Notes under the pieces: model-generated
Told to the model about the DNA's origin: nothing
What the model saw: only the letters and a program-made list of their open reading frames with translations
Database searches by the model: none
Part shown: positions 25,831 through 63,894 of the stretch, piece after piece
Layout: every line of letters starts with the position of its first letter
Numbering within the stretch: position 1 is the stretch's first letter
Assembly: GCA_900155495.1 (NCBI GenBank)
Contig: FTLJ01000198.1
Span: 1-64,000, forward strand
Origin: Porogramme epimiltina
Lineage: Eukaryota > Basidiomycota > Agaricomycetes > Polyporales > Polyporaceae
Length of the DNA stretch: 64,000 nucleotides
Direction of reading: 5' to 3'
Made by a program: the position numbers and the translations under genes

Positions 25831-26126
25831 CACACCATTGGTTTCATATAAAGTCATGTATTTAGGCACCTTTGATGACGACATCAACGATCGCGGCAAG
25901 GTTCCGGCGACTATGCTTTCAAATTCAACCCGCGCTAGGTAGTCAGCATTGTATCATTCTCGCATCCCTTACTTCAATGTCCTATCAACAGCGGCCAAGA
26001 GCTGTACAAACGCAAGTGGACAGTCTCGATCGCGACATTGTGCGACTGTACGTGTGAAGACATCACGACCATCCCAACGACCGTATACACCATGCATGAC
26101 TTCGATTCCGGACATCCGTGGACAGT

Positions 26127-42773: not shown

Positions 42774-42918
42774 ACTAAAAGCGCGAGAGCACGATGAGCA
42801 CCAGTGACAGCGAAACGATCTACGACAATAATCCACGGCCTGAATGGAACGGAAGTCGTTGAACGCAAATAACGGATAATGTCGAGGGTCTTTAGCTTAC
42901 CAAAAGCCACAATAGCAA

Positions 42919-44261
42919 CTAGTGCACATAGCTCTTCAGTGTCTTGAGGCCTCCCAAAGCGGCAGCGACGGTATCGTTGAATGCGCGCTCGTAGAGGGTC
43001 TCGGACGAGGGGCTAAGTCTCCAAGACACGAGCGACACCTTCTCCTCTCGGATAGTACACCATTGAGTCAGGACCTCGTTTGCTGTTGGGCGCGCCTGCG
43101 GGTCTACCTGCTTCATGAGGTCGATCATAGGCCGGAGGAAGTCCATGTTATGATATTTCTGTGGAGCGCGGGGGCCACCATGAGCGGGATACGCAGCGGA
43201 AGGACATTGCCGCGCACCTCTTGGAATTCCTCGTAGTATAGATGACCGAGCGCGAATATGTCGACCTTGAACGGGTCGTATGGTATGTCGTTGGAGAGCT
43301 CAGGGACTTTATCTTCTCGGCCGACATCCCCGACGACAAGGTGAGGCTCTCCTTCGTTGAAACGCACAGAGAGATCGAAGTCGATGTAGTAGTATTGTAC
43401 AGGATTCTCTGCACGGTGGAGTGGGCTGATTTCGTAGAGAGCGTCGGGGGTGAAATTCTGTCGAACTGGATGATGTCCGTGAGGATAAAGTGCTCGGCCG
43501 TCCATCATGATGTTCACGGCGGTCACATCTCTATAGATTTTGAGCATATGAAACATTAGAGGGGGTGTTGTGGGTCCTGACCTATGTGCGATGTTGTGCC
43601 GGTGAAGGAACACTAAACCCTACCTCGAAGTTAGTAAATTAGATAGCATCGTTTCGGACAAAGCATGGACGTACCTCGAGCGTTTGATTGATGAAGTCGA
43701 AGACTTCTCCAATGCTCCGAAACTCGGGGTCATTGCATGGTCGTAGGAATGGCATGACCATGAGGGTGATCGTAGAATCGAAAGGGTCGGGGAAGATGTC
43801 TAGTATGGGCACGGAATGATTCTGTGGATCCTTCACAGAGGAAAGGTAGCGAGCAATCTGAAGCTCCTGGCTACCATTGTTGCTGGACTTGATAGCAACG
43901 AGCTCGTCGTCATTGCGTCGTTTAGCGTCAATTACTTGGTAGGTCTACAGACAATAATAAGATTAGCAACCTAGAAACGGTAGTGGTCTGGAATGACGTT
44001 TACCGCTAACACAATTGAGTCTTCGCAGAACTGAGGATTGAGATTTGTCCCGACCCACGATGGTTGCCAATCCGGAGAATAACGTCTTCTGAGGACGTAT
44101 CCCCGCTTGTCGAGGGCCGGGTGCCGCTTACGCCAGAAGACCTCTGCCCTGCCGAGATCGAATGCGCCGGTGCGCGTAGCCTGCGCATACCGTTCGATTA
44201 CTGGCTCATCGTGCAAGATCGCGTATCGTGGCAGTCGTTTCTGTGTGACCGCGGAAGACAT
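42919..44261 (-). CDS. kinase-like protein, pair 1
   Basis: This belongs to the large basidiomycete family of divergent protein-kinase-like proteins. Exon 1 (44261-44004, 86 codons) has the family N-terminal block RGYVLRRRYSPDWQPSWVGT then CEDSI. Later exons give VIDAKRRNDDELVAIK (beta-3 Lys), ELQIARYL (helix-C Glu), LMVMPFLRP, NIAHR/DVTAVNIMMD (HRD loop with Asp and Asn), YYIDFDLSVRF (DFD instead of DFG), VPELSNDIPYDPFKVDIFALG and the end TLKSYVH. The gene is divergent from the membrane-protein gene at 44749. GTAAGC at 42900 and CATTCAG ending at 42840 mark a likely 3'UTR intron. With pair 2 it forms the more diverged end of the array. Confidence 0.8.
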
Positions 44262-44748
44262 CGAGTTGCGTCCGACCACGAATGCAGCGACGCTTGGCTG
44301 GTCACGGTCTGGCAAAACCCGAAGTGCGGTGGTGGGCTGGTGGCAACGTGTTATGTTCCAAATTTGGCAGCTTGCACGGGCCGTCTCGGTGCATGTTGCC
44401 AGCGCGGGTCCTTGACGCCCGGCGTTCTAGCGCCAATGAGCCCACGCTTCATGCCAGGTCGACTTCGTCCTCAACCTCGTGTATTGTTGTACCTGTGCAT
44501 ACACGGTAGGTCCCGTGTGCCCGATCATCCGGAAATGGCGGATGCTGTGACTAACGTTATGCTCTTCTGCACACAGACGATAGGCCGTCGCGCCATCCAT
44601 ATAATCATGTCTGGCCTGGATCTGGGGGTCCCAAGGTTCCCCGCCTCAACTGCTGGCCTTACCCAACCCCGCACCCTTTATCCCTATAGCACTCCAGGAC
44701 CATCCACATTCAGTCCTCCTTCTCGCCCGCCTCGCGCTCCCCTTCAGC
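44262..44748. promoter_or_regulatory. divergent promoter, pair 1
   Basis: The spacer is 487 bases between the two ATGs. It holds a conserved element at 44341-44383 (GGCAACGTGT, GTTCCAAAT, TGCACGGGCCG) and a second at 44475-44500 containing CTCGTGTATTGT. Both recur in all five pairs. Confidence 0.6.
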
Positions 44749-45984
44749 ATGGCCAACGACCAGGCTTACAATATCTTTGGGCTAGTGGCGGGTGCCATAG
44801 GAATACTCGCCGCTATCCCCATCTCCGTCATCTTCAGTAACCTCCCGCGATCCCACATCCGCCCCCTCGAAACGCTCTTGCGTGAAACAGAGGCATCCCT
44901 TCGCTCCGCTGTAGCCGAAGGCCTCATCCCCGATGACAACGTTGTGAAGCACCTCCACGATAAACTGTTCAAGTACGTCCAGTGTCACTGATAACATCGC
45001 CGCGATATGTCTCCCCTCAACAAAGTGCTGCGGCAGAGCCAAAGAAATCTTCGACGTCGTCAGGTATCAAGTGTACGACATTCACACCATTCGGCAAGAT
45101 CTCCGGCAATGGAAGAACGGTTTATCGAATGCGATGACGTCTCTGCGTTGTGATTTGCAGAAAATTCGGGTTGAGATCTCCGTGAGTTCATGTATTTATC
45201 TACTGTCGTAGTTATTGACTTTGTTTCTCTAAGAAACGTACTTCTGCTGAACGCGAGCTCCGGCGCGAAGAATGCTGTGAGGCTAGCCTGAAGCATCTCT
45301 CCGCCTACAAAGGTCTGTGAGAACATCCGTCTCAGGCCTTATTATCCATTTTGACCTGGCTGTTTGTCCCAAGACTTAGCCACCAAATATCCCGAAAAAC
45401 CATCTTCCGGGATGGTCCCCCCGTCATACCCGCAGTCCGTGTTCACTCTGGCTGACACAGAAAACGCTGTCCTCCCCACTCCCACGATGCGACGTATACG
45501 CGAAGACGAAAAGAATGACGCGCAAGACAAGGCTCCAAGCGACAGTCGTCCGCCATCTCGAGGCCGTTCCCGCCGCGATCGAATCGAGAAACGCCGCTCT
45601 GTGCATGAAGTCTTAGTTCGTCTTGGTCAAGAGCTGGCGAGCGGTCATTCACACGGCATTGGAGCTGTTGAGTCCGCCACATACCCTTCTCAGCCGAGTC
45701 AGCCCCGCGTTACCCCAGAGCCCCCCACCTCATGCAAAAAGGGCTCATCTTTCGGTAAAGCTCTCAGGTCCCTCCGACGCACCCTCTCTCCCCGCGCCGC
45801 TATTGGCACGGGCACCTCGTCCCTCCCTCGCTCGCATTCGTGCTGCGATGGCCCACTCCTCATACAGTTCATCCCGGAGGTGCTTAGCGCCTTAGAGGTA
45901 TCTGATGAGAGCGACTACAGCGAAGACGACGACGATGGCGACGAGGATTCGTGCGATTTGGGCACGACCGCGTTACCGGTCTGA
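44749..45984 (+). CDS. single-pass membrane protein with acidic tail, pair 1
   Basis: Four exons can be spliced. Exon 1 starts MANDQAYNIFGLVAGAIGIL and has one membrane helix (about residues 9-31), then NLPRSHIRPLETLLRETEASL. Exon 2 encodes FDVVRYQVYDIHTIRQDLRQ, an amphipathic, coiled-coil-like segment. Exon 3 is short and charged. Exon 4 carries a basic module (RRSVHEVLVRLGQELASG), the module RSHSCCDGPLLIQFIPEVL, and a strongly acidic end (SDYSEDDDDGDEDSCDLG) closing in LPV. The short N-terminus without charge bias and the long charged C-terminal region suggest a cytosolic tail (inference). No homologue outside this array comes to mind. The acidic Ser-rich tail could be phosphorylated, perhaps by the neighbouring kinase. 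Confidence 0.75.
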
Positions 45985-46931
45985 CTGCCATCCGACCCCA
46001 CACTGGCACTCTCCCCGCCACTCCCCGACGCCACTCACCCTACCTCGCCACGCCACCGAAGCCATCAAATACCTACCAGGCCCTGGTAAGGTCCTCGAAT
46101 ACCTCGCGTCTCATCTCCCTTGTACACAGTACGATACAGGTTCTTTTCCTCTCAGATGTGTAGAGGTCTCGGCGTTTTTCATCCCGTCCCTGCCCTTGTA
46201 AACGCTTTCTTCCCGCTGTCCGTTTTCCTATCGTGGGCGCTCTCCGTTACGCGCGGTTGTTGTAATGCTATTGTGTACGTTGTTCAGATTCCACCTTCCC
46301 CCAACGTCAAGCTCTTGTCCTTTGTGATGCTCGCTGCTCATCTCTCGCGCTCTAAGCGAACAGCGAGCGAGTGAGCGAGAAGGAGACTCCGACGCGGGCC
46401 CGTCGCTTACGGCGAGCCCACACGCACGCCTCGCGCTTGAGTAGGGGATTGGGCGTGCGCACCACAGGCCACGGCGGGCCAGATCTGATTCCAATGCCAC
46501 TTTCGTCGCACACAGGCCGAAGGAGTGGGCGGCAGCACGCGCTGAGCAGCAGTGTGGTTGAGAAGCCCCGCAATTTGATGGCTTGCGCCCGCGCGGCGCG
46601 CGGTAGTCTGGGGTAGCCGGAAGCCGGAGCGGCAGCAGGGCCGCGCGACATGGCCTCCGATTAGCAACCGTACTCACCGCGCGCGGTGAGGGCGATGTCG
46701 TTGATTTGAGAGCGGCACCCCAAGGCCAGTCATTCCCGCGGTTCGTTATTTCGGTGTCTCCCAGGCGCGCCCACCGATCACACGAACCCCACCAGGGGCT
46801 CGACCTTCAGAGAAATTGATACCATTAAGGATATAGAATTGTCTGAGGTATACGTTAGATTGCAGTACAAACGTGACGGACTAGGTGCGTTGATGATGGC
46901 GATGGAGGGGGATATATGGGTGCGTTCTGGT
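45985..46931. other. tail-to-tail spacer, pairs 1-2
   Basis: This holds the 3'UTR of the pair-1 membrane gene, with the shared motif TGTTGTAATGCTATTGTGT ending at 46276, and the 39-bp conserved element at 46533-46571. No coding region is supported. Confidence 0.5.
46533..46571. other. 39-bp conserved spacer element, copy 1
   Basis: First of four near-identical copies, one in each tail-to-tail spacer. The core CAGTGTGGTTGAGAAGCCCC is invariant. The flanks here are unrelated to those of the other copies and no TATA is seen upstream. The core alone is therefore under constraint. Confidence 0.7.
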
Positions 46932-47086
46932 GAGTATAGCTAAGAGCACGAGAGCACGACGAGGACCAACGACAGCGAGATGATCTATGATGACAGACAG
47001 ATGATCTAGATGTTGCACGCGCAGCGTCTCAGCGAGGCGTTGAGAACGAAAGGATGCAATGGGGCTCACCAGAGAGAGCGATGGGG

Positions 47087-48427
47087 CTAGCGCACATAGC
47101 TCCTCAGAGACTTCAGGCCCCCTAATGCAGCCGCGACGGTGTCGTTGAATGCCCGCTCGTACACCGTTTCGGACTTCGGACTGAGCCTCCACGACGCGGA
47201 CGAAGACTTTGCTTGGCGTATTGTTTGCCATTGTACGGCCACCTCGTCTATGGTCGGCCGCGCGTCAGGTTGTTGCTGCTTCATACGGTCGATCATCGGG
47301 AGAAGGAAGTCCATGCTGTGATATTTCTGTATAAACCAGGGTAAGAGCGAGTATTTTACGACGAGAATAGTACTGACGAGGTGAAACTCCTTGTAATAGA
47401 GGTTTCCCAGAGCGAAGATGTCGACCTTAAAGGCGTCGTAGGGCACGTCGTTCGAAAGCTCTGGAACCTTGTCGTCGCGCCCGACGTCTCCGATGACGAG
47501 GTGAGAGTCTCCTTCCGCGAACCGCACGGAGAGGTCGAAGTCGATGAAGAAGTAGCGTACAGGGTGTTCAGTGCGAGAAAGAGGGGTTACTTCATGCAAG
47601 GCGTCTGGGGAGAAGTCCTGCTGGATGGGGTGATATCCTTGTGGATACAAGGGTCGACCATCCATCATGATATTCACTGCAGCAACGTCCCTGATATAAG
47701 TGAGCGAGGGAAGAGGGGTTCATCTGGCCATTAGCACGTACTTACCGATGCGCTATGTTAAGTTCGTGGAGGAAAGATAGACCCTATGGTGACGTTAAGC
47801 TATTATGTAGTGAACGCAGGATCCGTTGCGAGACGAACCTCTAATGTTTGGTCGATAAAGTCTATAACTTCACCGATATTCCGGAATTCGGGATCGTTGC
47901 AGGGCCGGAGAAAGGGCATGACCATGAGTGTGAGCTGTGGGTCCAATGGATCGGGGAAGGTCTCCAGCACGGCAACGGAATGATTCCGGGGGTCGTGAAG
48001 GGTAGACAGGTACTGAGCGATCTGGACTTCGCGTGAGTTTTTGTTACATCTCTTGATAGCAACAAGCTCGTCGTCCTTTAGCCTCCTGGCGTCAATAACG
48101 TGGGGTTTCTGACAACAATAGGGTCGTGAGAGGAACGGTCATAGCTTAGTCGGGGAAACTTGTACTTGCCGCTAGGATCACGGAGTCTTCACAGTACATA
48201 GGGTTAAGATTTGTGCCGACCCATGAGGGCTTCCAGCCAGGTTTGTAGCGTTTTCTGAGGGCGTAACCGCACTTCTCCAGAGTTGGCTGTCGGTCTCGCC
48301 ATTGAACTTCGGAGGGATCGAGATCGTAAACGCCCGAGCGAGTTGACTGAGCGGCCCACTCAAATTCATGCTCATCGTGTAGGATCGCATGCCGAGGAAG
48401 TGGTTTTTGCGCGACTGTAGAGGACAT
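47087..48427 (-). CDS. kinase-like protein, pair 2
   Basis: The start MSSTVAQKPLPRHAILHDE lies at 48427, and exon 1 has the same 258-nt length as in pairs 1 and 3. Its intron opens with GCAAGT at 48169, a GC-AG intron where the other copies have GT. Key residues are present: DDELVAIK, ELNIAHR/DVAAVNIMMD, YFFIDFDLSVRF and VPELSNDVPYDAFKVDIFALG. The protein ends SLRSYVR. A 3'UTR intron is likely between 47069 and 47006. It is divergent from the membrane gene at 48950. Confidence 0.8.
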
Positions 48428-48949
48428 TAGACTGAGCGGGCTGCCGCAACAACAGCAGGTGTTGGTTCGTCACGGTCTGGCGATCCCCGACAAAGTGAAG
48501 GCTCGTGGCAACCTGTGTGCAATGTTCCAAATATGGAATATTGCACGGGCCGCCGCCGGCTTATGCCGCTGCCCGCGCCTCCCCGTTTGCCAGCGCTCGA
48601 CCTCATCCCTCCGCCGTGCTAGCTTCGTGACGGCAACCCCCACGGTGCCTCGTGTCTCCCGTGTATTGTCATACCAGTGCAACCATGGTGCGTGTGCACA
48701 TGTTTTGTTTTCTGGAAATGATGCGCTGAGCTCGTGTTCCGTGCTTCTGCAAACAGGCGGAAGCTATTCCCGCCGCTCATTTATGCCTCAGAGCTGGGAG
48801 TTTGGCTTCGCTGAAGGCCCCTCTCTGAAGTGCCCCGCGACTTTCCGTCATATCCGCATCCTTCGCAGCTACGAAACACCTTCCGTTTCCCGCATCTCAA
48901 CACACCCTACGCTCTCCTCATCCGACCCACCTTCCTAGCGCCACTCCCA
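48428..48949. promoter_or_regulatory. divergent promoter, pair 2
   Basis: The spacer is 522 bases. Conserved element 1 lies at 48506-48552 and element 2 (CCGTGTATTGT) at 48659-48684, in the same order and spacing as in the other pairs. Confidence 0.6.
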
Positions 48950-50152
48950 ATGGTGGACAACAATGCCGCCACCATTTTTGGCATTGTGGCGGGCATCATC
49001 GGGATGCTCGTGGCCATCCCTTATTGCTTCATATACAACCGGCTCCCCAGCAAAAGGATACACTATCTGGAATCGATGCACTCCGAAACGAAGAAGCTCT
49101 TCGATACCGCTGTCGAGGAAGGCCTCATCGATGATGACGCTGACATTGCTCTCATCCACAAAACCCTGTGGAGGTACGTCTTAAATTCTCTCTCCATTTA
49201 TCTTCGTCCTCATCTCTACTGGACGTAGGGTGATGATCGATATAGACAAGGCACGGATGGAGGTGTACAACACCCACACGATCTGGCAAGATTTTCGACA
49301 CTGGAGACGTGGCGTATCGCAAGATATTTCAAAACATTGCAATTCGTTGCAGAAGATACGAGCGAAAATCTCTGTGAGATATACTGTATTTGATAACGTT
49401 TCCACACGGCTCATTGGAATTTACAGGAACGAACTTCTATGGCTCGCCGGCTTAGAGAAGCCGCCTGCTACGAGGCTGGTTTAGCGCGGTTGTCTAACCT
49501 CAAGAGTACGCATGTTTTTATCTGTCTCAGAGAGGCACATGCTAATTTCTCTTCAGGGGCTTCTACTTTTCCTCTGGAGAAAACGGGCACTGGAGTCACC
49601 GTCTCGGCGTTGCCTCCTGACAGTGCTTTTGTCCCCGCCGACACGGTCTCCCACATGTCCCTAGACTCCGAGAAGACGCTTCAGGATCCTCCCACCAACG
49701 CTACTCGAGGCCTTTTGCACAACTCTTTGTCGCATTCACGCCGCGTGAAGGCAGAAAGGCGCCACTCGATGCGTGAAGTCCTCGTCCGTTTGGGTCAAGA
49801 ACTGGCTGCTAGTCACGTGCCTGGCGCCGTGGCCACGTTATCTCACGGAGAACCCACCACAAACGCACACGGTTCTGAGAAGGCTTCATCGAGCGCGAAG
49901 AAGCACAGGTGGGCACCCCTCACGAAGGTTGTGCACTCCTTCCGGAGAACCAGTGGCCCGCGTCCTGCCGAACCTCGCTCATCCCCCCAACACCCGCGTT
50001 CGCACTCGTGCTGCGACTCGCCATTTGTGATACACCTCACTCCTGACCTCTTGGATGCCCTCGAGACGTCCGACGAAAGTGATTACGATGACGAAGAGGA
50101 CAGCGGCGACGAGAAATCTTGCGATCTGGATGACATCGAGTCACCGGTGTGA
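48950..50152 (+). CDS. single-pass membrane protein with acidic tail, pair 2
   Basis: The most diverged N-terminus of the five: MVDNNAATIFGIVAGIIGML, then LPSKRIHYLESMHSETKKLF. Exons splice as in pair 1. Exon 2 contains VYNTHTIWQDFRHWRRG. Exon 3 contains RTSMARRLREAACYEAG. Exon 4 holds RRHSMREVLVRLGQELAAS, RSHSCCDSPFVIHLTPDLLD and the acidic YDDEEDSGDEKSCDLDD end, closing in SPV. The C-terminal modules are kept while the linkers have changed freely, which suggests selection on the modules. Confidence 0.75.
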
Positions 50153-51552
50153 TCACTGCACAACTCACCTGCCCCTCACAGAACATACCGTACTCCTACT
50201 TACACCCCAACTTGTCTCATCCTTCTACGCCGTCCTCATCTCGCCCCTGATACTCAACGTGCTCTGCTAGCTCTCCGTCCCAACTTGCGTTGTGTACCAT
50301 TGTAGTACCTTGTTGTAATGCTATTGTGTATCTCTGCCGTGGTGCGTTGTACTAAGTCTCCGGGTCTCCTTCTCTCGTCTCCTTTGCGTCGCGACCGTTG
50401 CATCTTATGAAGCATCGCCCGCTCCCGGCGAAGTCCCTTCGCTGCGCGCCCCTCTCATTCCGATACGCCACCTGCTATACATCTCTCTTCGGCACTCCTC
50501 GGTGCCTTAGATGTGCATGGTGTCTGCGGGTACAGAGGTGACGACAGCGGCACTGATGGCGACTCGTGCAACCTGGATGTGGGCAAGTTACCAGTCTCCC
50601 TCCGTCGAACGCATGGACGCCTCCCCGCTCCTCCTCCGCCTCTCGTAGTATACATGAACCACGTCCGCGGAGCACTAGTAGCTTGCTCATATCGCCTACC
50701 TTTTCCCGCTCCCCTAATGTGGCTGGTTTCTACTCAGAGTTTTCTATCGTAGATGCTTCCCCCCCGTCTATATTGTTATTACGTGTAGACAAGCTATGTT
50801 AACGTGTGGTGTCAACGCCTTGTCACGGTGTCGGCCAACATTGGTAATGTCCTTGTCGTCGAATATCGAGAACGCGGCACACGGCCTCACGCACCGTTCT
50901 AAGTCCGGCAAACCAGCACCGCTCAGGGCCATCCACGGCCTAGGGGCTCGCCATACCTCTAGCGCGCGGTGTCGGTGCCTCCGAAAATGGGACTTCGACG
51001 CGGGCGTGTTGTCCAAATGCTCAGCGCTCATGTGCGAACCGGCGGCCGCTCGACATGCGCCTGCACGGCAGGGTTGATGTTCCGCCCCCCCTTCCCGTTA
51101 TATCCCCCCCGCGCCGAAGATACGGGCGGTTCCTGCTCCACAGCACGCGTTTAGCAGCAGTGTGGTTGAGAAGCCCCGCCGGCGTTGATGCCGCTGTGCG
51201 TGCGCGTCGCCGGGCGCGGGCCTGCGCGTGTCCAGGCCATTCGTGCACGACGCCGCGCCGTCTGCGTTCGACAGGTCTACGCATAGGAAATCGAATGGAG
51301 CAGAACCTGGAAGGGCGGTGGCTCCTAGAACACGAGTTCTGCACGTGAAGGACATCCGCGTTCTGTGTCAACGACTCCTTCGAGATTTCGTCGCTACCTC
51401 TGGGATTCAGGTGCATCATCCCTCCCGTCGGGCGCGATTAATTATATGTAATCGAACTGAAAGTACGACAAGGGACGATAGACTGTAGTACAAGCTGCCT
51501 GCCAGAGTGGGCGTTGGCATCGATGATGGCGGATGCATGTGGGATGGTGATG
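50153..51552. other. tail-to-tail spacer, pairs 2-3
   Basis: The longest spacer of the array. It has the 3'UTR motif at 50310-50329 and the 39-bp element at 51141-51179. A stretch near 50475-50640 resembles a decayed copy of the acidic-tail exon (GTGACGACAGCGG, then GACTCGTGCAACCTG and a CCAGTCTCC end), so it may be a relic of a membrane-gene 3' end (inference). Confidence 0.4.
51141..51179. other. 39-bp conserved spacer element, copy 2
   Basis: Differs from copy 3 at a single position in the left part. A TTATA box lies 43 bases upstream (51098), and the region between is also similar to copies 3 and 4. This looks like a small transcription unit reading rightward. Confidence 0.65.
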
Positions 51553-51707
51553 GATACAATTAAGAGCGCGAGAGCACAACGAAAGTCAACGATAGCGAGG
51601 TGATCTAGGGACACGACCGTGTCATCTGTGAAGAGCACCTACGTATTCATATGAGTACGCACACCACATAGACCAAAGCAACCAGACTCACAGGTGAAAT
51701 GGTAGAA

Positions 51708-53046
51708 TTAGTGCACGTAGCTCTTCAAGGTCTTCAGACCGCCCCGTGCGGCAGCGATCGTGTCGTTAAATGCCCGTTCGTAGACCGTCTCCGAGTGCGG
51801 GCTCAGCCTCCACGATTTCATCGAATCCTTCTCCACGCAGATATGCTCCCACTGTTCAGATACCTCGCCTATCGTTGGCCGCATATCGGGTTGGACCTGC
51901 TTCATTCGGTCGATCATCGGTAGAAGAAACTCTGTATCGCGATACTTCTGTAGACGGGAATCGCATCAGTGGGGGGACGGAAGTAGGATGCTAGGCTTAC
52001 CTTGCAGAACTCCTTGTAGTAGAGGTTCCCCAAGGCAAAGATGTCCACCTTGAAAGCGTTATAGGGCACATCGTTCGACAGTTCCGGAACTTCGTTGTCA
52101 CGACCAACATCTCCGATGACGTTGTGCGATTCTCCTTCTTCAAAGCGGACTGAGAGGTCAAAGTCGATGAAGTAGTACCGTACAGGGTGGTCTGTCCGTG
52201 AGAGAGGAGTCGCTTGGTGCTGACCGTCCGGTGTGACGAAGCGGCGAGCCGGATGATATCCTTCTGGATACAACGTCAGTGCGTCCATCATGATATTCGC
52301 GGCGGCAATATCTCTGTGGGTGAATTTGAGTCACAGAAATATTCATGTTTATGCACGTATAGCCTCACCGATGTGCAATGACTAGTCCATGCAGGAACGC
52401 TAAACCCTATACTTTGTCAGCACCTCGACCGGAAGTAATGCGTCTGGTGTGGGTGGCCTACCTCAATGGTTTGTGTGATGAAGTCCATGGCTTCTCCAAC
52501 AGTACCAAATTCAGGGTTATTGCAGGGCCGGAGGAAAGGCATGACCATGAACATAACCCCAGGGTCCAAGGGATCGACGAAGGCGTCTAATAGGGGAACG
52601 CAATGCTTCTTAGGGTTGTTGAGGGTGGTTAGGTATCGTGTGATTTCAAGTTCGTGTGATCTTCTATGACACCATTTGATTGCTACCCACTCCCCGTCGC
52701 TTCGTCGCTTTGCGTCGATGACATAGGGGTTCTGTAAATCAGAGGACATAAACCGCGGGGACTCTCGTCTTTCAAAAGTCGACCTCACCATTAATCTGAT
52801 ACCGTCTTCGCAGAAGAAAGGATTGGCATCCGTTCCCAACCAGGACGGTTTCCAGTCGGGAGAATACCGCGGCCGGAGAATGTAGCCTCGCTTTTCGAGC
52901 TCGGGTTGCCGGTCCCTCCAACGGATCTCTGATGGGTCCAGCGAGAAGACGCCGCCGGAGGAAGCGTCAGCGGCCCGTTCCATGGCAGCTTCATCGAGCT
53001 CGATCACGCGTCGAGGTAGTTTCTTTTGTGTGGCTGCAGAAGACAT
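51708..53046 (-). CDS. kinase-like protein, pair 3
   Basis: The best-resolved model of the five has exons 53046-52789, 52731-52462, 52406-52369, 52313-52001 and 51947-51708, giving 372 aa in frame. The N-terminal block is RGYILRPRYSPDWKPSWLGT. The catalytic parts are DGEWVAIKWC (Lys), HELEITRYL (Glu), IAHR/DIAAANIMMD (HRD loop, split by an intron inside the Arg codon), YYFIDFDLSVRF (DFD) and VPELSNDVPYNAFKVDIFALG. The C-lobe ends RPTIGEVSEQWEHI and TLKSYVH. No signal or membrane segment is present, so it is cytosolic or nuclear. GTGAGT at 51691 and CACAG ending at 51626 suggest a 3'UTR intron. It is closely related to copies 4 and 5. Confidence 0.85.
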
Positions 53047-54668: not shown

Positions 54669-56347
54669 CCACCCTCCCTCCCCTTCCTGCCGCCGCCCCA
54701 CCGGTCATCGCATCATCCCTTCCCTCCCCACACACGTCCTCCCCTCCCCCTGAACGACGTCTCAAAGGTCCACTCGAAGGTAGACCGCGCCGCTTATCCC
54801 TTTCTCCTCGTCGTCTACTGTACGATAGAACCCCCCCTCTCTTGCCGTGTACATCATCTACCCCGTTACGTGTATCTCCCGTTGTTGTCCCCGACGCTCC
54901 CATCCTGCCGTGTTTAGATGTTCTTCCGCGTGTTGTCGTTGTGCTCTGTTGTAATAGTATTGTGTCAGTCGCCAACGCGGCTTGCTATTGTCTTATTGCG
55001 TGCAACAACGATTCTATGTTGAAGGGAAACCCCGATTATGATGTCGTTGACTGCTCGTATTCACTAATTAGCACTTCAGATCATTAGGCGTCGTGTCCCG
55101 AACTCGAGAGTGAGTCGGTGGAATCCCGATGACGGACGCGCTGGCACGCACAAGCGCCCTTCTTTGTGGCGCTGAGCATGGTCAGGGTTTGGAAGGCTGT
55201 GGGCACGAAGAACGACTAGGGGCTGCGAGTGGGCCGCGGCCTGAATCCGGCAAAGGTGGGCGCGCTCAGCGCTGGTTCTGGTACCTGCGGCACGACTCGT
55301 CACTCGATGCAAGTCTCGGGACCCGCCCGTGGGACCTGGGGCGATTGGTAAGATCGGCCGGATCGGGATGCCTTTTTGCCGGGATCCGGCCAAGTGCGTT
55401 GAAGTGACGTAAAAGTTCCCGGGGTAGGAGGTCCAGGCTCTCCTGTCTTCTGCTCTCCACGTCCGTCGACGTCGTCGATACTACTGTAGCATCATCTCGT
55501 CTAGCCCAGACGTTGCTGTACACAGTGTCGACTGCTTTTGCCAACTCACTGTGACAGCACCATTGCCGGCAGCGCGCCACACGGCCTCGTGAGCCGCCCC
55601 AGCTCTAGTGGACCAGCACTTCTACTTAAGGATCCCAGCAAAAGCTCCGAGACTCGAGTCATGTCGCTAGCACGCCTTGTGGGTATCACCGAAAATGGGA
55701 CTCCGACGCGGACATGATGTCTATCATCTAATTGCTCATGTGGGTCCGGCCGGCCGCCTCGCGAAATGCGCCTCGACGGCGAGGTCGACGTTCTGCTCCC
55801 TTCCCCTTTATACCCTCCCCGCCCCGACGATACGGGCGGGCCGCGCTCCACAGCACGCGTTGAGCAGCAGTGTGGTTGAGAAGCCCCGCTAAGCCTTGAT
55901 GCCGCCGCGCTTGCGCGGCGCCTGGTGGCCTCGGCGTACGTCCTAGCCTGGCGTACGCAACGCGCTGTCTGCCTTTCGAGGGTGTGTAAGATCGAAATAG
56001 AACGGGGAGGAAGCTGGCTTGGCTGTGCGGGGTAGCGGCTCCTAGCACACGAGCACCGTCAATAAAGTACATCCTGGCTCTACACCGGGGATACGCGGGT
56101 AGCCTGGGGATGGCCGGCCGCATCGAGATTTGGTTGCTTCCACGTTTTCATTCTTGAAGCGCACACATTGAGGCCCAAAAGATGTCTGGAATCAAATGCC
56201 CTCACATTTCCCGTTCTAGACGATGTTTGATAGGCAATTGATCGAAGCGTCACTGAATGTAGGAAAGACAATAAGTCGTAGTACAAGGTGGCCGTCAGCG
56301 TAAGTGCCTGAGGCGATGGTAGTATGTATATTATGGGGATCACTGAT
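54669..56347. other. tail-to-tail spacer, pairs 3-4
   Basis: 3'UTR motif at 54947-54965 and 39-bp element at 55851-55889. Long stretches are similar to the pair 4-5 spacer at the DNA level, but reading frames are not conserved, so I call no gene. Confidence 0.5.
55851..55889. other. 39-bp conserved spacer element, copy 3
   Basis: This copy agrees with the majority base at every position. A TTTATA box lies 44 bases upstream at 55807. The segment before the TATA (AAATGCGCCTCGACGGCGAG) and the GATGCCGCCGCGCTTGCGCG that follows the element are shared with copy 4. Confidence 0.65.
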
Positions 56348-56501
56348 GAGTACAACTGATAGCGCGAGAGCACGACGAAAACCAACGGCAGAGATGGTGT
56401 AGGGGTATGGCTGTAACACCTATAAAAGAGTCCCTACATGTCCATGTCAGCAGGTGAATCACAAACAAAATCAGGTTCGGCTCACCGGTCAAATGAGGGA
56501 A

Positions 56502-57834
56502 CTAGCGTACATAACTCTTCAAAGTCTTCAAACCTCCCCGCGCTGCGGCGACAGTGTCGTTAAACGCTCGTTCGTAAACCGTCTCTGACTTCGGACTCAG
56601 CCTCCACGATGTCATCGAGCCCTTCTCCACATGGATACGCTCCCACTGCTCAGACACCTCGACTATCGTCGGTCGCATGTCGGGTTGGACCTGTTTCATC
56701 CGGTCGATCATTGGTAGAAGGAATTCCGTGTCGTGATACTTCTGTAGACAGAAATCGCGTGAGCTGGGAGACGGAAGGATGATGTTAGGCTTACCTTGCA
56801 GAACTCTTTGAAGTAGAGGTTCCCTAGCGCAAAGATGTCCACCTTGAACGCATTGTAGGGAACGTCGTTCGACAGTTCTGGAACTTCATTGTCGCGACCA
56901 ACGTCCCCGATGACGTTATGTGATTCGCCTTCTTTAAAGCGAACAGAGAGGTCGAAGTCGATGAAGTAGTATCGTACAGGGTGGTCGCTCCGTGACAGCG
57001 GCGCGACTCTATGTTGAGAATCAGGGGTGAAGTTGCGCCGAACCGGATGATAACCTTCAGGATATAAAGCTCGTGCGTCCATCATAATGTTGGCAGCTGC
57101 GATGTCTCTATTGGTAGACGTAAGTCATAAGAGTATTTATGCATGTATAGTCTCACCGATGCGCAATGACCAACCCATGCAGGAACGCCAAACCCTAGAC
57201 TTCATCAGTACCCTGATCGGAGGTAAGGAGCCCAGTGTGAACAACCTACCTCGATTGTTTGTGTAATGAAGTCCATGGCTTCTCCAATAGTACCAAATTC
57301 GGGGCTATTGAAGGGCCGAAGGAAAGGCATGACCATGAGGGTGACACCAGGGTCCAAAGGATCGACGAAGGCGTCTAATAAGGGAACACAATGCTTCTTG
57401 TCGTCGTCGAGGGTGGTTAGGTATCGTGCAATTTCAAGCTCGTGTGATCTTCTATGACACCATTTGATGGCGACCAGTTCTCCATCGCTGCGTCTCTTTG
57501 CGTCCATAATGTAAGGGTTCTATAAACAAGAGAACATAAGCAGCGTGGACTCCCGTCTTTCGAAAGTCAGCCTCACTAATCCGATTATGCCATCTTCGCA
57601 GAAAAAAGGGTGAAGATCCGTCCCCAACCAGGATGGTTTCCAGTCAGGAGAGTACCGCGGCCGGAGAATGTAACCTCGCTTTTCGAGCTCGGGCTGCCGG
57701 TCCCTCCAACGGATCTCTGATGGGTCCAGCGAGAAGGTGCCGCCGAGGGAATTCTCAGCGTCCCGCACCAGGGCAGCCTCATCGAACTCGATCACGCGTC
57801 GAGGCGGTTTCTTTTGTGTGGCTGCAGAAGACAT
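56502..57834 (-). CDS. kinase-like protein, pair 4
   Basis: Same five-exon layout as pair 3. It starts MSSAATQKKPPRRVIEFDE at 57834 and ends TLKSYVR. Visible are DGELVAIKWC, HELEIARYL, LMVMPFLRPFN, HR/DIAAANIMMDARAL, YYFIDFDLSVRF and VPELSNDVPYNAFKVDIFALG. The N-terminal block reads RGYILRPRYSPDWKPSWLGT. A 3'UTR intron is likely from 56485 to about 56411. All catalytic positions except the DFG Gly are kept. Confidence 0.8.
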
Positions 57835-58281
57835 TAGGGTGGGATGAACCTCAAGGCCCGCTGTTGCCGCCGGTTCGTCACCGATGGGTGGCAACGTGTG
57901 CGATGTTCCAAATCGGGGCATGTGCACGGGCCGCTCAGGCGCCCGTCGTGGGGAAGGGCGCGCCCAAATTTCAGGAAACGCCCGTGCATCCTCCCAACCT
58001 TTTCTCAACCTCGTGTATTGTCAGACCAGTGCAACCAAGATGGATCTACACGCGTCAGGCCTTCTCGAAATGATGCATGCGGTTTCTGTCTCCCATGCTT
58101 CGATAGTCTAGCCGAAGGCCTCCCTCACGCCGCTACGCATTTATGACCGACGAATGTCTGGGGCCCAACCCCCGCGGAGGCAACCCCCTCACTTGTCTCC
58201 TCGCGTCGTCCCATCGTCTCTTCCCTTCATTGCCAGAAGCCCCCTCTATCCCGGGCAAACCATCCTTCGGCCCCCATCACG
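57835..58281. promoter_or_regulatory. divergent promoter, pair 4
   Basis: The spacer is 447 bases. Element 1 is at 57889-57933, element 2 at 58009-58040, and GCATTTATGACC near 58137 is a TATA-like site shared with pair 5. Confidence 0.6.
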
Positions 58282-59427
58282 ATGGCCAACGACCAGGGAT
58301 ACAACATTTATGGTGTTGTGGCGAGCACGATTAGCATCGTCGGCGCTATCATCTCTCTTTGGCTTTGGCTCCTCTATTGCCGTCTCCCGCGCTCCAAGAT
58401 CCAGCTCCTTGAATGCCTTCTGTCGGAAACAGAGAAACTCTTGTACACAGCTATCAAAGATGGTTACATCGACGACAAGTCTGTCCACCGCTTCTGCAAT
58501 TGCCTCCACAAGTACGTTTTCAGCGGCACATATTATATATCATACTCACATATTATGAAAGCATCAAAGGATCGGCAGACATTGTGCGCGCAGAGGTATA
58601 CAGCACGCGCACTACTTGGCAGGACATCAAGAAATGGTGGAACGGGCTGTCTCTCAAGATGTCGAAAATATGTGAAGAGTTGCAGCAGCTCCGCACTGAA
58701 ATCTCCGTGAGTGGCACGTATTCACCTGAGGAGTCCCCTCTCACGTCCCCACTCAGGAAAGATGCTCTGATACAGCTGGAGGTTCTAAAAAAGAGGACAC
58801 GGCTGTCTTTAAGACCGATTTTGAGCCGCTCTCGTCCCAAAGAGGTACGTACACAAACAACAGGCATTGTCACCTACCCAGTCTCCTAACTCCCTCGCTG
58901 CAGATTCGAGCTCACTCAGTAGTGTGGAAAAACTTCCTCTGGACACCGAATTCGCTACCTCGCTCGTCCCCGCACCCGTCATCATTCCCGCAGATGTAAT
59001 TCATGCGGGCGAGTGCGCGGAGGATTCTCCGCCGCCGCGCCTTGAAGATCACCATCGAATGAGGGCAGAACGGCGTCGCACGACTCGTCAAATCTTGTTA
59101 CGACTCGGTCGAGAGCTCGCTGCCGGTTCTGGGCTCTCCCGAGACCCCGAGTTGTGCGACGCGGCGCACGATGCCCAGACGCTTCCGAACGCGAAACGGT
59201 GTGGCCACCGCCCTGTCCTCCAGATGGCGACGAAGTTCTTCCCCCGGGCCCTAGATCCGCGCCTTCAGTCCCATGCGTGCTGCGACGGACCGCTAGTCAT
59301 TGAGCTCACGCCCGAACTGCTACTAGACGCGTTAGAAGCATCCGACTCCGGCGACTCTAGCGACGACGAGGGGGACGGTGGCGAGGAAGACTCGTGCGAT
59401 CTGGGCATTGCCAAGCTATCGGTGTAG
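58282..59427 (+). CDS. single-pass membrane protein with acidic tail, pair 4
   Basis: It starts MANDQGYNIYGVVASTISIV, with one helix running to LWLWLLYC, then RLPRSKIQLLECLLSETEKL. The exons join as in pair 3: a GTACGT donor near 58512, exon 2 with VYSTRTTWQDIKKWWNGLS, and exon 3 with ERCSDTAGGSKKEDTAVF. The last exon has SSVEKLPLDTEF, RRRTTRQILLRLGRELAAG, QSHACCDGPLVIELTPELLL and the end SSDDEGDGGEEDSCDLG, closing in LSV. His-Ala replaces His-Ser in the His/Cys-Cys module. Confidence 0.8.
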
Positions 59428-60760
59428 CCTCCCTCCCTCCCCTTCCCGCCGCACCGGGCACCGCATCATCCCTTCCTTCCCCACACACGCCTTCCCCTCC
59501 CCCTGAACGACGCCTTTGAGTCTACTCGAAGGTAGACTGACCCGCTTATCCCTTTCTCCTCCTCTACTGTACGATAGAGCCCCCCCCCCTCTTGCCGTGT
59601 ACATCATCTACTCCGTTACTTGCTTCTCGTATCTCCCGTTGCTGTCTCGATGCTTCAATCCTACTGCGCTTATATGTTCCTCCGCGTGTTGTCATTGTGC
59701 TCTGTTGTAATACTATTGTGTCAGTCGCCAACGCGGCTTGCTATTGTCTTGTTGTGGGCGACAACGATCCTATGTTGAAGGGAACCCCCGATGATGGCGA
59801 TGTTAACAGCTCGTATTCACTAATTAGCACTTCATATCATGCTGCGTCGTGTCTCGAACTCGATCGGAGTGGGTCAGAATCCCGACGACGGACGCACTAG
59901 CATGCACAAGCGCCCTTCTTCGTGGCGCTCGGCATGGTCAGGGCCTGGAAGGCTGTGAACACGAAGAACGACTAGGGGCAGCTCGTGGGCCGCGGCCTGA
60001 ATCCAGGAGAGGGGGGCGCACTGGTTCTGGTACCTGCAGCACGACTCGATGCACGGCTCGGGGCCCGTGGCACCTGGAGCGATTGGTAAGATCGGCCGGA
60101 TCGGGATGCTTTTTTGCCGGGATCCGGCCAGGGGCGTTGAAGTGACGTGAGTATCCTCGAAATGAGATGATTTCCCGTAAATGCTCATGTGGGGCAGGCC
60201 GGCGGCCCCTCGAAATGCGCCTCGACGGCGAGGTTGACGTTCTGCTCCCTTCCCCCTTATACCCTCCCCGCCCCGACAATACGGGCGGGTCGCGCTCCAC
60301 AGCACGCGTTGAACAGCAGTGTGGTTGAGAAGCCCCGCCAAGCCTTTGGTGCCGCCGCGCTTGCGCGTCGCCCCGAGGGCTCAGTGTGCGTCCTGGCCTG
60401 GCGTACGCAACGCGCTGTCTGCCTTTCAAAGGTGTGTAAGATCGAAATAGAACAGGGAGGGGGCTGGCTAGCACACGAGCACCGTTAGTTGAGTATAACC
60501 GGTGCTACGTCGGGGTTACGCAGGTAGCCAGGGGATCGCTGGCCGCATGGAGATTTGGTTGTTTTCGCCTTAGTTTTCTTCGAAGTGTCCAAAGGGTCGC
60601 TGAGATTGGATGCCCTCACTTTTCTTGATGTGGACAATGTTTGATGGGATGGGCAATCGTCCGAAACGTTGCTCAATGTAGAAAGACATTAAGTCGTATT
60701 ACAAGCTGCTCGTCAGCGTGGGTGCCTGAGGCGATGGCGGTATGTATGTGTGGAAAGATG
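59428..60760. other. tail-to-tail spacer, pairs 4-5
   Basis: 3'UTR motif at 59703-59721 and 39-bp element at 60300-60338. DNA similarity to the pair 3-4 spacer is extensive, with indels that break any reading frame. Confidence 0.5.
60300..60338. other. 39-bp conserved spacer element, copy 4
   Basis: One difference from copy 3. CTTATA lies 44 bases upstream, as in copies 2 and 3. Confidence 0.65.
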
Positions 60761-60918
60761 GTGAGTACAATTGATAGCACGAGAGCACGACGAAAACCAA
60801 CGACAGAGAGACGATGTAAGTGTATGACTGTAAAACCTATGAAAGATTCCCTATACATCCATGTGAGTAGGTGTAACACAAACCCAAGGGGGTTCAACTC
60901 ACTAGTCAGGTGATGGAA

Positions 60919-62259
60919 CTAGCGTACATAGTTCTTCAAAGTCTTCAGACCGCCCCACGCCGCAGCAACCGTGTCGTTGAACGCCCGTTCGTAAACCGTT
61001 TCCGACTGCGGGCTCAGCCTCCACGATTTCATCGATGCATTGGCCTTACGGATATCTTCCCACTGCGCAGATACCTCACCAATGGTCGGTCGCATGTCTG
61101 GTTGGACTTGCTTCATTCGGTCGATCATCGGTAGAAGAAACTCCGTATCGCGATAATTCTGTAAACAGTAATAGCATAAGGAGGGAGACAGACGGTAAAT
61201 GCCAGGCTTACCTTGCAGAACTCTTTGTAGTAGAGGTTCCCTAAGGCAAAGATGTCCACCTTGAACGCGTTATAGGGCACGTCGTTCGACAGTTCCGGAA
61301 CTTCGTTGTCGCGACCGACGTCCCCAATGACGTTGTGTGGTTCGCCTTCTTTGAAGCGGACCGAGAAATCGAAGTCGATGAAATAATACCGCACAGGGTG
61401 GTCCGTCCTTGAAAGCGGCGTCGCTTGACGCTGAGCGTCCAGTGTGACAAAGCGGCGGGCCGGATGATATCCTTCAGGATACAAAGTTAGTGCATCCATC
61501 ATGATATTGGCGACCGCGATATCTCTGCAGGAAGACATGAGCCATAAGATCAATTGTCATTATTCATGTATAATCTCACCGATGTGCGATGACAAGTCCA
61601 TGCAGGAACGCTAAACCCTAATTACTCATGAGCGTCATGGACGAAAAGCACGGGATCTCGCGTGAAGGACCTACCTCAATTGTTTGCGTAATGAAGTCCA
61701 TAGCTTCTCCAATAGTGCAAAATTCAGGATCATTGAAGGGCCGGAGGAAAGGCATGACCATGAGTGTGACATCAGGGTCCAGAGGATCGACAAAGGCGTC
61801 TAACAAGGGAACACAATGATTCCTGGGGTCGTTGAGGGTGGTTAGGTATCGTGCTATTTCAAGTTCGTGCGATTTTCTATGACACCACTTGACGGCTACC
61901 CACTCCCCGTCGCTGCGCCGTCTTGCGTCAATGACATAGGGGTTCTACAAACAAGAGAACATGAGCGGCGTGAACTCTCGTCTTTCGAAGGTCGGCCTCA
62001 CCATTAATCTGATACCATCTTCGCAGAAGAAAGGGTGAAGGTCCGTCCCCAGCCAAGACGGTTTCCAGTCGGGAGAGTACCTCGGCCGGAGAGTGTAACC
62101 TCGCTTTTCCAGGTCGGGTTGCCGGTCCCTCCAACGGAGCTCTGATGGGTCGAGCGAGTAGATGCCGCCGAGGGCAGATTCGGCGGCCCTTTCCATAGCA
62201 GCCTCATCGAACACAAGCACGCGACGGGGCTGTTTCTTTTGTGTGGCTGCAGGAGACAT
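60919..62259 (-). CDS. kinase-like protein, pair 5
   Basis: It starts MSPAATQKKQPRRVLVFDE at 62259 and ends TLKNYVR. The layout equals pair 3, with RGYTLRPRYSPDWKPSWLGT, HR/DIAVANIMMD, YYFIDFDFSVRF (the residue after DFD is Phe in place of Leu) and VPELSNDVPYNAFKVDIFALG. A 3'UTR intron probably runs from 60902 to about 60828. The copy looks intact. Confidence 0.8.
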
Positions 62260-62742
62260 TAGGGTGAGATGGACTTCGAGACTTGTTGTTGACGTTGGCT
62301 CGTCACCGGCTGACAATCGTCAGGGCGGGTCGCAACGTGTGCAATGTTCCAAATCGAGGCATGTGCACGGGCCGGGCCGTTCAGGCGCCCGTCATGAGGA
62401 AAGGCGCACCCAACTTTCAGGAGACGCCCATGCCTCTTCCCAACCTCTTCTCAACCCCGTGTATTGTCAGACCAGTGCAATCAAGATGGATCTACACGCG
62501 TTTGGCCTTCTCGGAACGATACATGCGCTTTCTGTCTCCCGCGCTTCGATAGCCGAAGGCCTCCCTCACGCCGCCGCTACCCATTTAAATTTATGACCGA
62601 CGAATGTCTAGGGGACCCCCCTGCCCCCCCTACACCTGTTCCCGATTCACCTCGCGTCACTCCCTCTTACTTTCCTGCACCGGGCTGTCACTACCTGGAG
62701 GTCCTCTTACTCTTGCTGCTCACCCACTCGGTCTTCGCCACA
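62260..62742. promoter_or_regulatory. divergent promoter, pair 5
   Basis: The spacer is 483 bases. Element 1 is at 62330-62376, element 2 (CCCGTGTATTGT) at 62455-62482, and a TATA-like CATTTAAATTTATGACC lies near 62582. Confidence 0.6.
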
Positions 62743-63894
62743 ATGGCCAACGACCAGCCATACAACATATTTGGTGTTGTATCGGGCACGATCGGGATCC
62801 TCGCCGCTGTTATCCCTCTTGTGCTTTGGCTCATCTATCTCCGTCTCCCCCGCTCGAAGATTCAGTCCCTTGAGTCCCTCCTGTCTGAAACAGAGAAACT
62901 CTTGACTTCCGCGGTTCAAGAGGGCGTTGTCGATGACGCGATTCTCTACCAGTTCCACGGACGCCTTTTCGAGTACGTTTCCACTATCCGCTGTTGCATT
63001 GACACTCACCTATTTCCCCAGAATAAAGCAATTGGTGCACGTTATACGCGCAGAAGTCCACAACACGCGCAATATTTGGCAAGACGTGAAAAGATGGTGG
63101 AAAGGATTGTCCCTCAAGATGTCAGCTGTGTGCGCAACCATGAAGGTTCTCCGAGCTGAGATCTCTGTGAGTGACACCCACCCATCCAATGACTGCACTG
63201 CTCACCTCCCCACTCACTGGCAGGGAAGATGTTCTGATGCCGCTGTGGGCGCCAAAAATGAGGACACGGCCCTACTTGAAGCTAGTTTCAAGCAGCTCTC
63301 GTCGCAAAGAGGTATGCACACAAGCATCAGGCATTATCGCGCGTATAGTTCGCTGAACCCCTTGCCGCAGCCTCGAACTCACTCAGTAGTGTGGAAAAAC
63401 TTCCTGCGGATGCCGAACACTTTGCCCCGCCCTCGCTCACACGTGTCATCACCCCTGCCGATGTCGTCGAGGCGGGCGAATGCACAAAGGATTCTCCGCC
63501 ACAGTGCCCGGAAGATCACCATCGACTGCGGGCGGAACGGCGCCGCGCGACTCGTCAAATCTTGTTACGACTTGGTCGAGAGCTCGCTGCCGGTCTAGGT
63601 GTCCCTTACAAGTACACGTCGCGCGACACCGCACACGACACACAGAAGCTCCATGGCACAAAAGGGCGCGATCATGGCTCTGCCTCACGGACGTCATTGA
63701 AGTCCTCCTGCCACACTCCGGATCTACCCCTTCATTCCCATCCGTGCTGCGAGGAACCACTGGACATCGATCTCATGTCCGAGCTGCTCCTAGACGCGTT
63801 GGAAGCATCCGACTCTAGCGACTCTAGCGACGACGAGGGGGACGGTGGTGAGGAAGGCTCATGCGATCTAGGTGTGGCTAAGCTACCGGTGTAG
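62743..63894 (+). CDS. single-pass membrane protein with acidic tail, pair 5
   Basis: It starts MANDQPYNIFGVVSGTIGIL, one helix to VLWLIYL, then RLPRSKIQSLESLLSETEKL. Exon 1 ends at 62972. Exon 2 opens IKQLVHVIRAEVHNTRNIWQ and contains GLSLKMSAVCATMKVLRAEI. The last exon carries SSVEKLPADAEH, RRRATRQILLRLGRELAAG, HSHPCCEEPLDIDLMSELLL and the acidic SSDSSDDEGDGGEEGSCDLG end, closing in LPV. His-Pro replaces His-Ser in the His/Cys-Cys module. The array may continue past the window, because only about 100 bases follow the stop. Confidence 0.8.

Follow-up and report, generated by a model that had tools for sequence, protein, structure and literature searches.

The 64,000-nucleotide window of Porogramme epimiltina DNA analysed here carries, at positions 42919–63894, five head-to-head gene pairs, each combining a kinase-like gene (K) on the minus strand with a gene for a protein with one transmembrane (TM) segment (M) on the plus strand (Table 1). 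The spliced models, worked out by hand from splice signals and open frames rather than from transcripts, place the two ATGs 487, 522, 468, 447 and 483 bp apart in pairs 1–5, exactly the range of 447–522 bases given in the initial annotation. The kinases are all of one length, with five exons and intron phases 0,0,2,0, while the M genes have four exons with phases 2,0,1; apart from intron 1 of K2 (GC-AG), the 34 remaining introns are GT-AG. None of the ten models contains a stop or a frameshift, so that the earlier description of constant intron positions and no dead copy holds, but the "small" membrane protein is in fact about 330–350 aa long. Copies share 61–87% amino acid identity in K and 36–66% in M, and the unit recurs every 4.2–4.8 kb; judged from these identities and this spacing, the repetition of K together with M lies far beyond chance. 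The count of five pairs stands for the window, but the array is longer than was claimed, with a sixth pair beyond it on the same contig (C162).

Table 1. Features of the K/M array; positions refer to the window unless prefixed with C162, which marks contig positions beyond it.
Feature	Position	Strand	Remarks
K1 kinase-like gene	42919-44261	minus	372 aa, 5 exons; PF00069 40.8 bits
Pair 1 two-way promoter	44262-44748		motif A 44353-44383, motif B 44478-44499
M1 single-TM protein	44749-45984	plus	350 aa, 4 exons
Conserved non-coding element	46533-46571		tail-to-tail spacer after M1
K2 kinase-like gene	47087-48427	minus	372 aa; intron 1 GC-AG
Pair 2 two-way promoter	48428-48949		motif A 48522-48552, motif B 48660-48681
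M2 single-TM protein	48950-50152	plus	347 aa
Conserved non-coding spacer element	51092-51214		after M2
K3 kinase-like gene	51708-53046	minus	372 aa
Pair 3 two-way promoter	53047-53514		motif A 53116-53146, motif B 53225-53246
M3 single-TM protein	53515-54668	plus	329 aa
Conserved non-coding spacer element	55795-55925		after M3
K4 kinase-like gene	56502-57834	minus	372 aa
Pair 4 two-way promoter	57835-58281		motif A 57903-57933, motif B 58012-58033
M4 single-TM protein	58282-59427	plus	328 aa
Conserved non-coding spacer element	60244-60370		after M4
K5 kinase-like gene	60919-62259	minus	372 aa; PF00069 37.3 bits
Pair 5 two-way promoter	62260-62742		motif A 62344-62374, motif B 62458-62479
M5 single-TM protein	62743-63894	plus	328 aa
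Conserved non-coding spacer element, fifth copy	C162:64990-65114		after M5
Orphan degenerate M-like gene	C162:75136-76059		no kinase alongside
K6 kinase-like gene	C162:76763-78166	minus	intron phases as K1-K5
M6 single-TM protein	C162:78743-79960	plus	intron phases as M1-M5

A Pfam scan of K1, K5, K6 and the relative P0007 placed all four above the PF00069 cut-off of 31.7 bits, K6 with 45.2 and P0007 with 47.9 bits. The closest kin are Polyporales "kinase-like domain-containing proteins" (e.g., P0007 from Fomes fomentarius, P0012 from Lentinus tigrinus and P0005 from Cerioporus squamosus), mostly of about 370 aa and with the same catalytic motifs; over the eight best-scoring matches of each query, K1–K5 are 52–58% and K6 60–66% identical to them. 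No membrane partner appears in the source names of these relatives. Consistent with the claim that the kinase keeps its key motifs, Lys105, Glu113, the HRD Asp190, Asn195 and Asp239 are invariant in K1–K6 and 48 aligned relatives. The AF2 model of P0007, a relative and not itself a window kinase (pLDDT 90.4), matches the ePK fold in a Foldseek search of the PDB with probability 1.00 and a TM-score over the query of 0.40–0.48 among the 50 matches listed. The K proteins lack a TM segment. Instead of the canonical DFG, K1–K5 have DFD (the database matches divide into 86 DFG, 2 DFD and 4 DFE), while K6 has DFG; K1–K5 cluster as one group, with the long-branch P0120 inside. Furthermore, the catalytic-loop Lys of the Ser/Thr type (HRDxK) is replaced in all six kinases, by Thr in K1 and by Ala in the others, Ala being also the majority consensus of the 48 relatives. 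Given these substitutions in the DFG motif and the catalytic loop, the catalytic activity of K is not certain.

The membership of K in a known basidiomycete kinase expansion holds only broadly, the listed relatives being Polyporales PF00069 proteins, but an assignment to FunK1 (PF17667) fails for the scanned members. FunK1 is described, in the mushroom Coprinopsis cinerea, as a fungal kinase family with lineage-specific expansions and a Ser in the catalytic loop at the position of the ePK Lys (PMC3203195). While K shares with it the fungal provenance and a lineage-specific expansion, the PF17667 scores of K1 (13.5 bits), K5 (12.6) and P0007 (16.3) stay below the cut-off of 24.1, K6 gives no match, and Ala or Thr replaces the Ser in K1–K6 if, as we read it, position 8 of that paper equals HRD+2. 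Of the 132 PF17667 matches listed for the genome (107 of 170 candidates scored), none lies on this contig.

In M1–M5 a single TM segment lies at the N-terminus and the tail is acidic and contains Ser, in line with the membrane-tethered protein first described; a slight charge bias weakly favors a mostly cytosolic body. SHxCC and SCDL motifs are present in all five, and the tail and a basic helix are conserved; the fastest-diverging segment is 233–276 (dN 0.33–0.65). No known membrane-protein or scaffold family was found for M: M1–M6 match no Pfam family above cut-off, and the best PDB match has E 0.3. Single-sequence searches of the genome with M5, M6 and M1 returned M only on this contig, besides lone matches at E 0.94 (C280) and 0.56 (C568); M6 was not recovered with M5 or M1, and diverged members could thus escape detection. 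Across species, a profile search that scored only the 7997 candidates richest in common words gave just two ENA fragments, P0001 and P0002, and a search with the N-terminus of M6 gave none among 302 candidates; both depend on shared 5-residue words and are insensitive, so that absence is not established.

The synonymous divergences of the two partners agree in units 3–5 (pairs 3-4, 3-5 and 4-5: dS 0.725/0.569/0.694 for K and 0.614/0.564/0.582 for M), and for units 1–5 the K tree and the M tree, both unrooted, have in common the splits {1,2} and {3,5} (support 70 and 78 for K, 96 and 67 for M). The duplication of the K+M unit in tandem as a whole, kept as intact pairs, is thus well supported, as had been proposed. 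Among K1, K2 and the group K3–5, synonymous sites have reached or nearly reached saturation, with dS either beyond estimate or at least 1.8. Within units 3–5, dN/dS is 0.10–0.13 for K and 0.36–0.47 for M, i.e., 3–4.5 times as high in M. These values bear on the view that the locus is no more than a lineage-specific tandem array of kinases, with M as a hitch-hiking, fast-evolving orphan of little consequence. The lack of any Pfam or PDB family for M fits such an orphan, and the kinase relatives are numerous in Polyporales, several on equally long contigs. However, M seems to be under purifying selection (dN/dS 0.25–0.47 in ten M1–M5 comparisons, with dS near saturation in the older ones), its two motifs persist in M1–M5 and its intron phases are fixed in six copies; hence, we regard hitch-hiking as highly improbable.

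Divergent genes served by one two-way promoter are a general kind of arrangement, and the K/M pairs resemble them in head-to-head orientation, in ATGs about 0.45–0.58 kb apart and in conserved cis motifs. What sets the K/M pairs apart is that the whole pair recurs in tandem and that the membrane partner is uncharacterised and evolves faster. The motif CGTGTATTGTNNNACCNGTGCA has exactly five mismatch-free matches in the 41.9-Mb genome, one per promoter of pairs 1–5, and one extra match at 2 mismatches; ATGTKCCAAATNNNGNNNNNTGCACGGGCCG likewise has five mismatch-free matches, one per promoter, with no sixth in the genome at up to 2 mismatches. The backward-pattern control gave 0 for either motif. 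The order and distances of motifs A and B are conserved across promoters 1–5, while the promoters of pairs 1 and 3 have only short blocks in common besides them. An array-unique motif pair in a two-way promoter favors co-expression, and K and M of a pair are likely to be co-regulated. The motifs had gone unmentioned in the initial annotation. The tail-to-tail spacers carry a further conserved element, for which a structured RNA was considered and rejected, as none of its 31 predicted pairs has changes on both sides (no covariation); nor does the unit contain an RNA gene, with no Rfam match at gathering score and no tRNA.

The sixth pair is intact and divergent, with 576 bp from ATG to ATG, and neither motif A nor motif B was detected at it. 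In the tree, K6 falls in a different clade from K1–K5, and since both clades have Lentinus and Cerioporus members, the K/M pairing looks old. Together with the orphan M-like copy, this extra pair agrees with the proposed evolution by tandem birth and death. Such turnover, the rapid divergence of M segment 233–276, and P0001—an M-like sequence from another source, at most 57% identical to spliced M1–M6 and 66% identical to M3 translated through its introns—could point to a recognition or conflict system (self/non-self or selfish, poison-antidote-like), with variable M as the specificity-determining or toxic part and K as transducer or controller. Yet whole-gene dN/dS exceeds 1 for no M, dN exceeds dS in only one of 21 segment comparisons (TM exon 1 of M4/M5, 0.23 vs 0.21 over 34 codons), the tail and basic helix are conserved, and no recognition or toxin family known so far resembles M; we consider a recognition or conflict role of this sort quite unlikely.

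The initial annotation took co-duplication to imply that the two products work together. Against this step stands that unit duplication alone explains the adjacency, carrying both genes along whether or not they cooperate. All ten other K-related loci found with K5 in the genome (six on C411, two on C389, one each on C73 and C108) are without a detectable M in searches with two M1–M6 profiles (best E 0.2), and the insensitive cross-species searches located no M in annotated proteins of other species. A divergent gene at C411:156703-156897 was considered as an M and proved a singleton, not M. In the literature covered (titles and abstract starts, with most subscription journals outside coverage), no Polyporales kinase/membrane gene pair of this kind was found. 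It is possible, if somewhat doubtful, that regulation alone is shared: the unit would have been copied passively by unequal crossing-over, and the proteins would work under the same condition without forming a complex. The array-unique promoter motifs, the sufficiency of duplication and the other kinase loci are in keeping with this. Against it, no partner has been lost in units 1–5 despite the (near-)saturated dS among K1, K2 and K3–5, and pair 6 retains M though its kinase is of another clade.

We give even weight for and against to the explanation we prefer, that the K/M pairs were duplicated as a unit, are co-expressed and form one membrane-proximal signaling module. The founder would have been a single divergent pair of a PF00069-type kinase devoid of a TM segment and a one-TM protein, multiplied by tandem duplication of the whole unit with intact pairs retained. 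From the two-way promoter, K and M would be expressed together and act in one module near the membrane, where M might anchor or recruit K through a helical region and an acidic, Ser-rich tail that might bind K or be phosphorylated by it; the variable side, for input or recognition, would then fall to the faster-evolving M and the output side to conserved K. In favor of this module count the ten intact gene models, the concordant divergence and trees of K and M, the array-unique promoter motifs, the conserved catalytic residues and kinase fold, the dN/dS contrast, and pair 6, whose kinase belongs to the other clade but whose partner is likewise divergent and agrees in its intron phases. Against it count the passive carriage of both genes by duplication, the ten kinase loci without detectable M, the orphan copy without a kinase, the lack of detected motifs A and B at pair 6, the lack of M found in other species' annotated proteins, the uncertain activity of K and the weak charge bias behind the topology of M. 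A physical or phosphorylation link between K and M is what we infer from the sequences; the co-copying of the genes with one two-way promoter suggests that their products are made together and perhaps work together.

Few fungal kinase families outside the standard signaling pathways are known to have assigned partners. The locus supplies a candidate partner for such a kinase and a regulatory code common to both genes, and its copies form natural sets of matched and mismatched K/M combinations; if the pairing holds across other Polyporales, it would point to a membrane-linked signaling module in a family that the sources consulted call only "kinase-like" or "hypothetical". We also entertain, as unlikely, a two-part mushroom recognition/signaling system, in which each variable M would be wired by pairing and a private promoter to its own cytosolic K, and tandem birth and death would have diversified the set into a receptor-like repertoire; if true, this would be, in function, a fungal counterpart of receptor kinases with the two parts encoded by separate genes.

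Finally, the catalytic loop of K3 and K4, HRDIAAAN, resembles the tyrosine kinase (TK)-type DL(R/A)A(A/R)N. In the published description of FslK, these are expanded Agaricomycete kinases related to tyrosine kinases, mostly stand-alone kinase domains, and TK-type residues are missing from FslK members themselves (PMC3937382).

Five repeat units, spaced 4.2-4.8 kb apart, make up the array, each with a kinase-like gene (K1-K5) and a gene for a one-TM protein (M1-M5). The ten gene models, built by hand without transcript support, specify kinases of exactly 372 aa each in 5 exons (intron phases 0,0,2,0) and membrane proteins of 328-350 aa in 4 exons (phases 2,0,1), with introns of 49-67 bases throughout and GT-AG borders, the sole exception being the GC-AG intron 1 of K2. 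None of the ten has a stop or frameshift, and in pairs 1-5 the two ATGs lie 487, 522, 468, 447 and 483 bases apart. The initial annotation had described five intact divergent pairs with these strands and this spacing, and the models bear it out in all details checked. Introns 1 and 2 of M3 (54 and 51 bases) are open and in frame, so their retention would still yield a protein. About 100 bases past each kinase stop lies a 60-base block, perhaps a 3'-UTR element; relative to the unit 2 copy the other four are 70-83% identical.

Genome searches with K5 and M5, followed by retrieval of flanking sequence, located an intact sixth divergent pair beyond the window with 576 bases from ATG to ATG and the same intron phases. 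Identity to the copies of units 1-5 is 52-54% for K6 and 19-25% for M6. An orphan, degenerate M-like gene, also outside the window, retains recognizable exons 1 and 2 and a 99-base stretch 73% identical to the M6 tail, with a TGA in the matching frame; no remnant of a kinase gene was detected next to it.

Coordinates of the features on contig C162, of which the window is positions 1-64000 (assembly G000: 41.9 Mb, 926 contigs)
Feature	Position	Strand
K/M units 1-5	42919-63894	K minus, M plus
Stretch with M3 introns 1 and 2	53515-54087	plus
60-base block past kinase stop	42763-42822, 46928-46987, 51548-51607, 56344-56403, 60759-60818	
Tail-to-tail spacer element	46533-46571, 51092-51214, 55795-55925, 60244-60370, 64990-65114	
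Degenerate M-like gene	75136-76059	
Pair 6 (K6/M6)	76763-79960	
Second tandem array	15636-30349	
Direct repeats	34143-34863	

The earlier claim that the intact pair was duplicated as a whole is well supported by matching synonymous divergence and common tree splits. In units 3-5, where synonymous sites are unsaturated, K has a dS of 0.57-0.73 and M one of 0.56-0.61, and the unrooted K and M trees of units 1-5 have in common the splits {1,2} and {3,5}, with support of 70 and 78 in the K tree and of 96 and 67 in the M tree. Over 15 unit pairs, which are not independent of each other, identity in K correlates with identity in M at r 0.97. When M6 is included, M5 is drawn outermost with a support of 47, the M6 branch being too long for rooting.

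The kinase tree (n=123, rooted at the midpoint) comprises K1-K6 and 117 of 122 database proteins; the other five, which were excluded, are two M fragments and three proteins that each carry a pair of kinase domains. K1-K5 cluster together in a clade that includes Fomes, Earliella, Lentinus, Cerioporus and Polyporus kinases; P0120, an Epithele kinase on a long branch, is placed inside their group at a fork that is unresolved. K6 falls in a separate clade with Lentinus and Cerioporus kinases (support 94), held apart from K1-K5 by branches with support of at least 95 (least changes forced, 2); the branch dividing the two large clades has a support of 90. As both Lentinus and Cerioporus have members in both clades, the split probably predates these genera. 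In Porogramme, kinases of both clades have the same divergent M partner and the same intron phases. Judging from identical contig sizes, one contig in Cerioporus (P0005, P0013, P0014; 165666) and one in Lentinus tigrinus (P0006, P0024, P0025; 426790) likewise appear to carry kinases from the two clades together.

The kinases are of a known kind. The three scanned, K1, K5 and K6, match PF00069 above the cut-off and are below it, or without a match, for PF17667 (FunK1). Elsewhere in the assembly, FunK1 has at least 132 exon-level matches, all on contigs other than C162 and several together on one contig (e.g., C198, C155, C395). There are 658 kinase relatives at E <= 1e-5, and the genus names of the 120 listed all belong to the order Polyporales; in three of these proteins (P0003, P0004, P0105), two kinase domains of the wider family are annotated in one chain, and these are either real fusions or merged gene models. 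K1-K6 and 48 aligned relatives all keep the ATP-site Lys, helix-C Glu, HRD Asp, Asn and DFx Asp. The enzymes are likely catalytically active. DFD replaces DFG in K1-K5; the 122 database proteins, two of them M fragments, include 86 with DFG, 2 with DFD and 4 with DFE, rows without a pattern match being uncounted. In place of the catalytic-loop Lys, K1 has Thr and K2-K6 have Ala, likewise the residue in the majority consensus of the 48 Polyporales relatives. The HRDIAAAN loop of K3 and K4 looks like those of tyrosine kinases. The confident model of a Fomes relative, P0007 (pLDDT 90.4), displays a protein-kinase fold, with PAK4, MST3 and CaMKII among the best matches and a TM-score over the query of 0.40-0.48 among the matches listed.

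M has a single hydrophobic segment, spanning residues 5-37 or so. The flanking charge, 0 to +2 on the C-side and -3 to -1 on the N-side (+1 in M6), is a weak bias that suggests an N-out/C-in topology. The protein is better conserved up to about residue 125, followed by a basic helix, a variable segment, SHxCC (in M1-M5) and a tail that is acidic and contains Ser; of the last 45 residues, 10-18 are Asp or Glu. In units 3-5 its dN/dS is 0.36-0.47 versus 0.10-0.13 for K, and divergence is fastest in segment 233-276 (dN 0.33-0.65). No dN/dS above 1 was found over the whole M gene, and segment dN exceeds dS in 1 of 21 comparisons (TM exon 1 of M4/M5; 34 codons, 0.23 vs 0.21). A recognition or conflict system, the kind of locus that the initial annotation had partly in mind, appears improbable and is without direct support. 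P0001, a further M-like database fragment from another source, is at most 57% identical to spliced M1-M6, and 66% identical to M3 when the M3 introns are translated as well; P0002 is by eye identical to M5 across exons 2 and 3. The fragments hint that M copies or alleles differ between isolates.

Single-sequence genome searches with M5, M6 and M1 found no M outside C162 bar lone weak matches on C280 (E 0.94) and C568 (E 0.56), and their power is limited because the M5 and M1 queries missed M6. The K5 search (E <= 1) gave wider-family kinases at ten further loci (six on C411, two on C389 and one each on C73 and C108), and M was found at none of the ten in flanks of about 1-2 kb upstream of each, 31,229 bases and 988 frames in all, with a best E of 0.2. 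As a profile of M1-M5 recovers M6 (E 1.6e-7), this flank search has some power; a more diverged M could still escape it.

The five intergenic regions of pairs 1-5 contain two ungapped motifs in a kept order and distance: counted from the kinase ATG, motif A starts at 69-95 bases and motif B at 178-233 bases, and B ends 249-269 bases from the M ATG. Across the 41.9 Mb, each has five exact sites, all in these promoters; motif A has none other at up to two mismatches, and motif B one further site with two (control 0). That all five promoters have the motifs follows from their derivation from these very promoters; the information lies in the lack of the motifs elsewhere and in their retention across pairs 1, 2 and 3-5. 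Apart from the motifs, the promoters of these pairs have only short blocks in common, and their kinases differ by a dS of about 1.8 or more or beyond estimate. At pair 6 neither was found; the best local match to B there has eight mismatches. K and M are likely co-regulated, and co-duplicated divergent gene pairs with common promoters are a known arrangement. The main rival reading, for which there is a real if lesser case, is that the two have regulation in common without forming a complex. The reading we favour, at even odds, is that they form a membrane-proximal module, in which M would be the anchor or input and K the output; their physical cooperation is what we infer. In the literature searched, to which subscription journals mostly did not belong, we found neither the membrane partner nor the pairing described.

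The tail-to-tail spacers hold a non-coding element with an invariant core of 23 bases; a 1-kb spacer query matched nothing but this array, and as an RNA the element gave no Rfam match and no covariation. Units 3 and 4 share a 169-base block at 93% identity, though dS there is about 0.6-0.7. The second tandem array has three units spaced 4.3-5.4 kb apart, without a credible match to K or M; many of its blocks are 90-96% identical and others 63-85%, and minus-strand reading frames in two units end in the acidic ESDFDEAPF. Between the two arrays lies a direct repeat of about 103 bases in four copies, spaced 159-231 bases.
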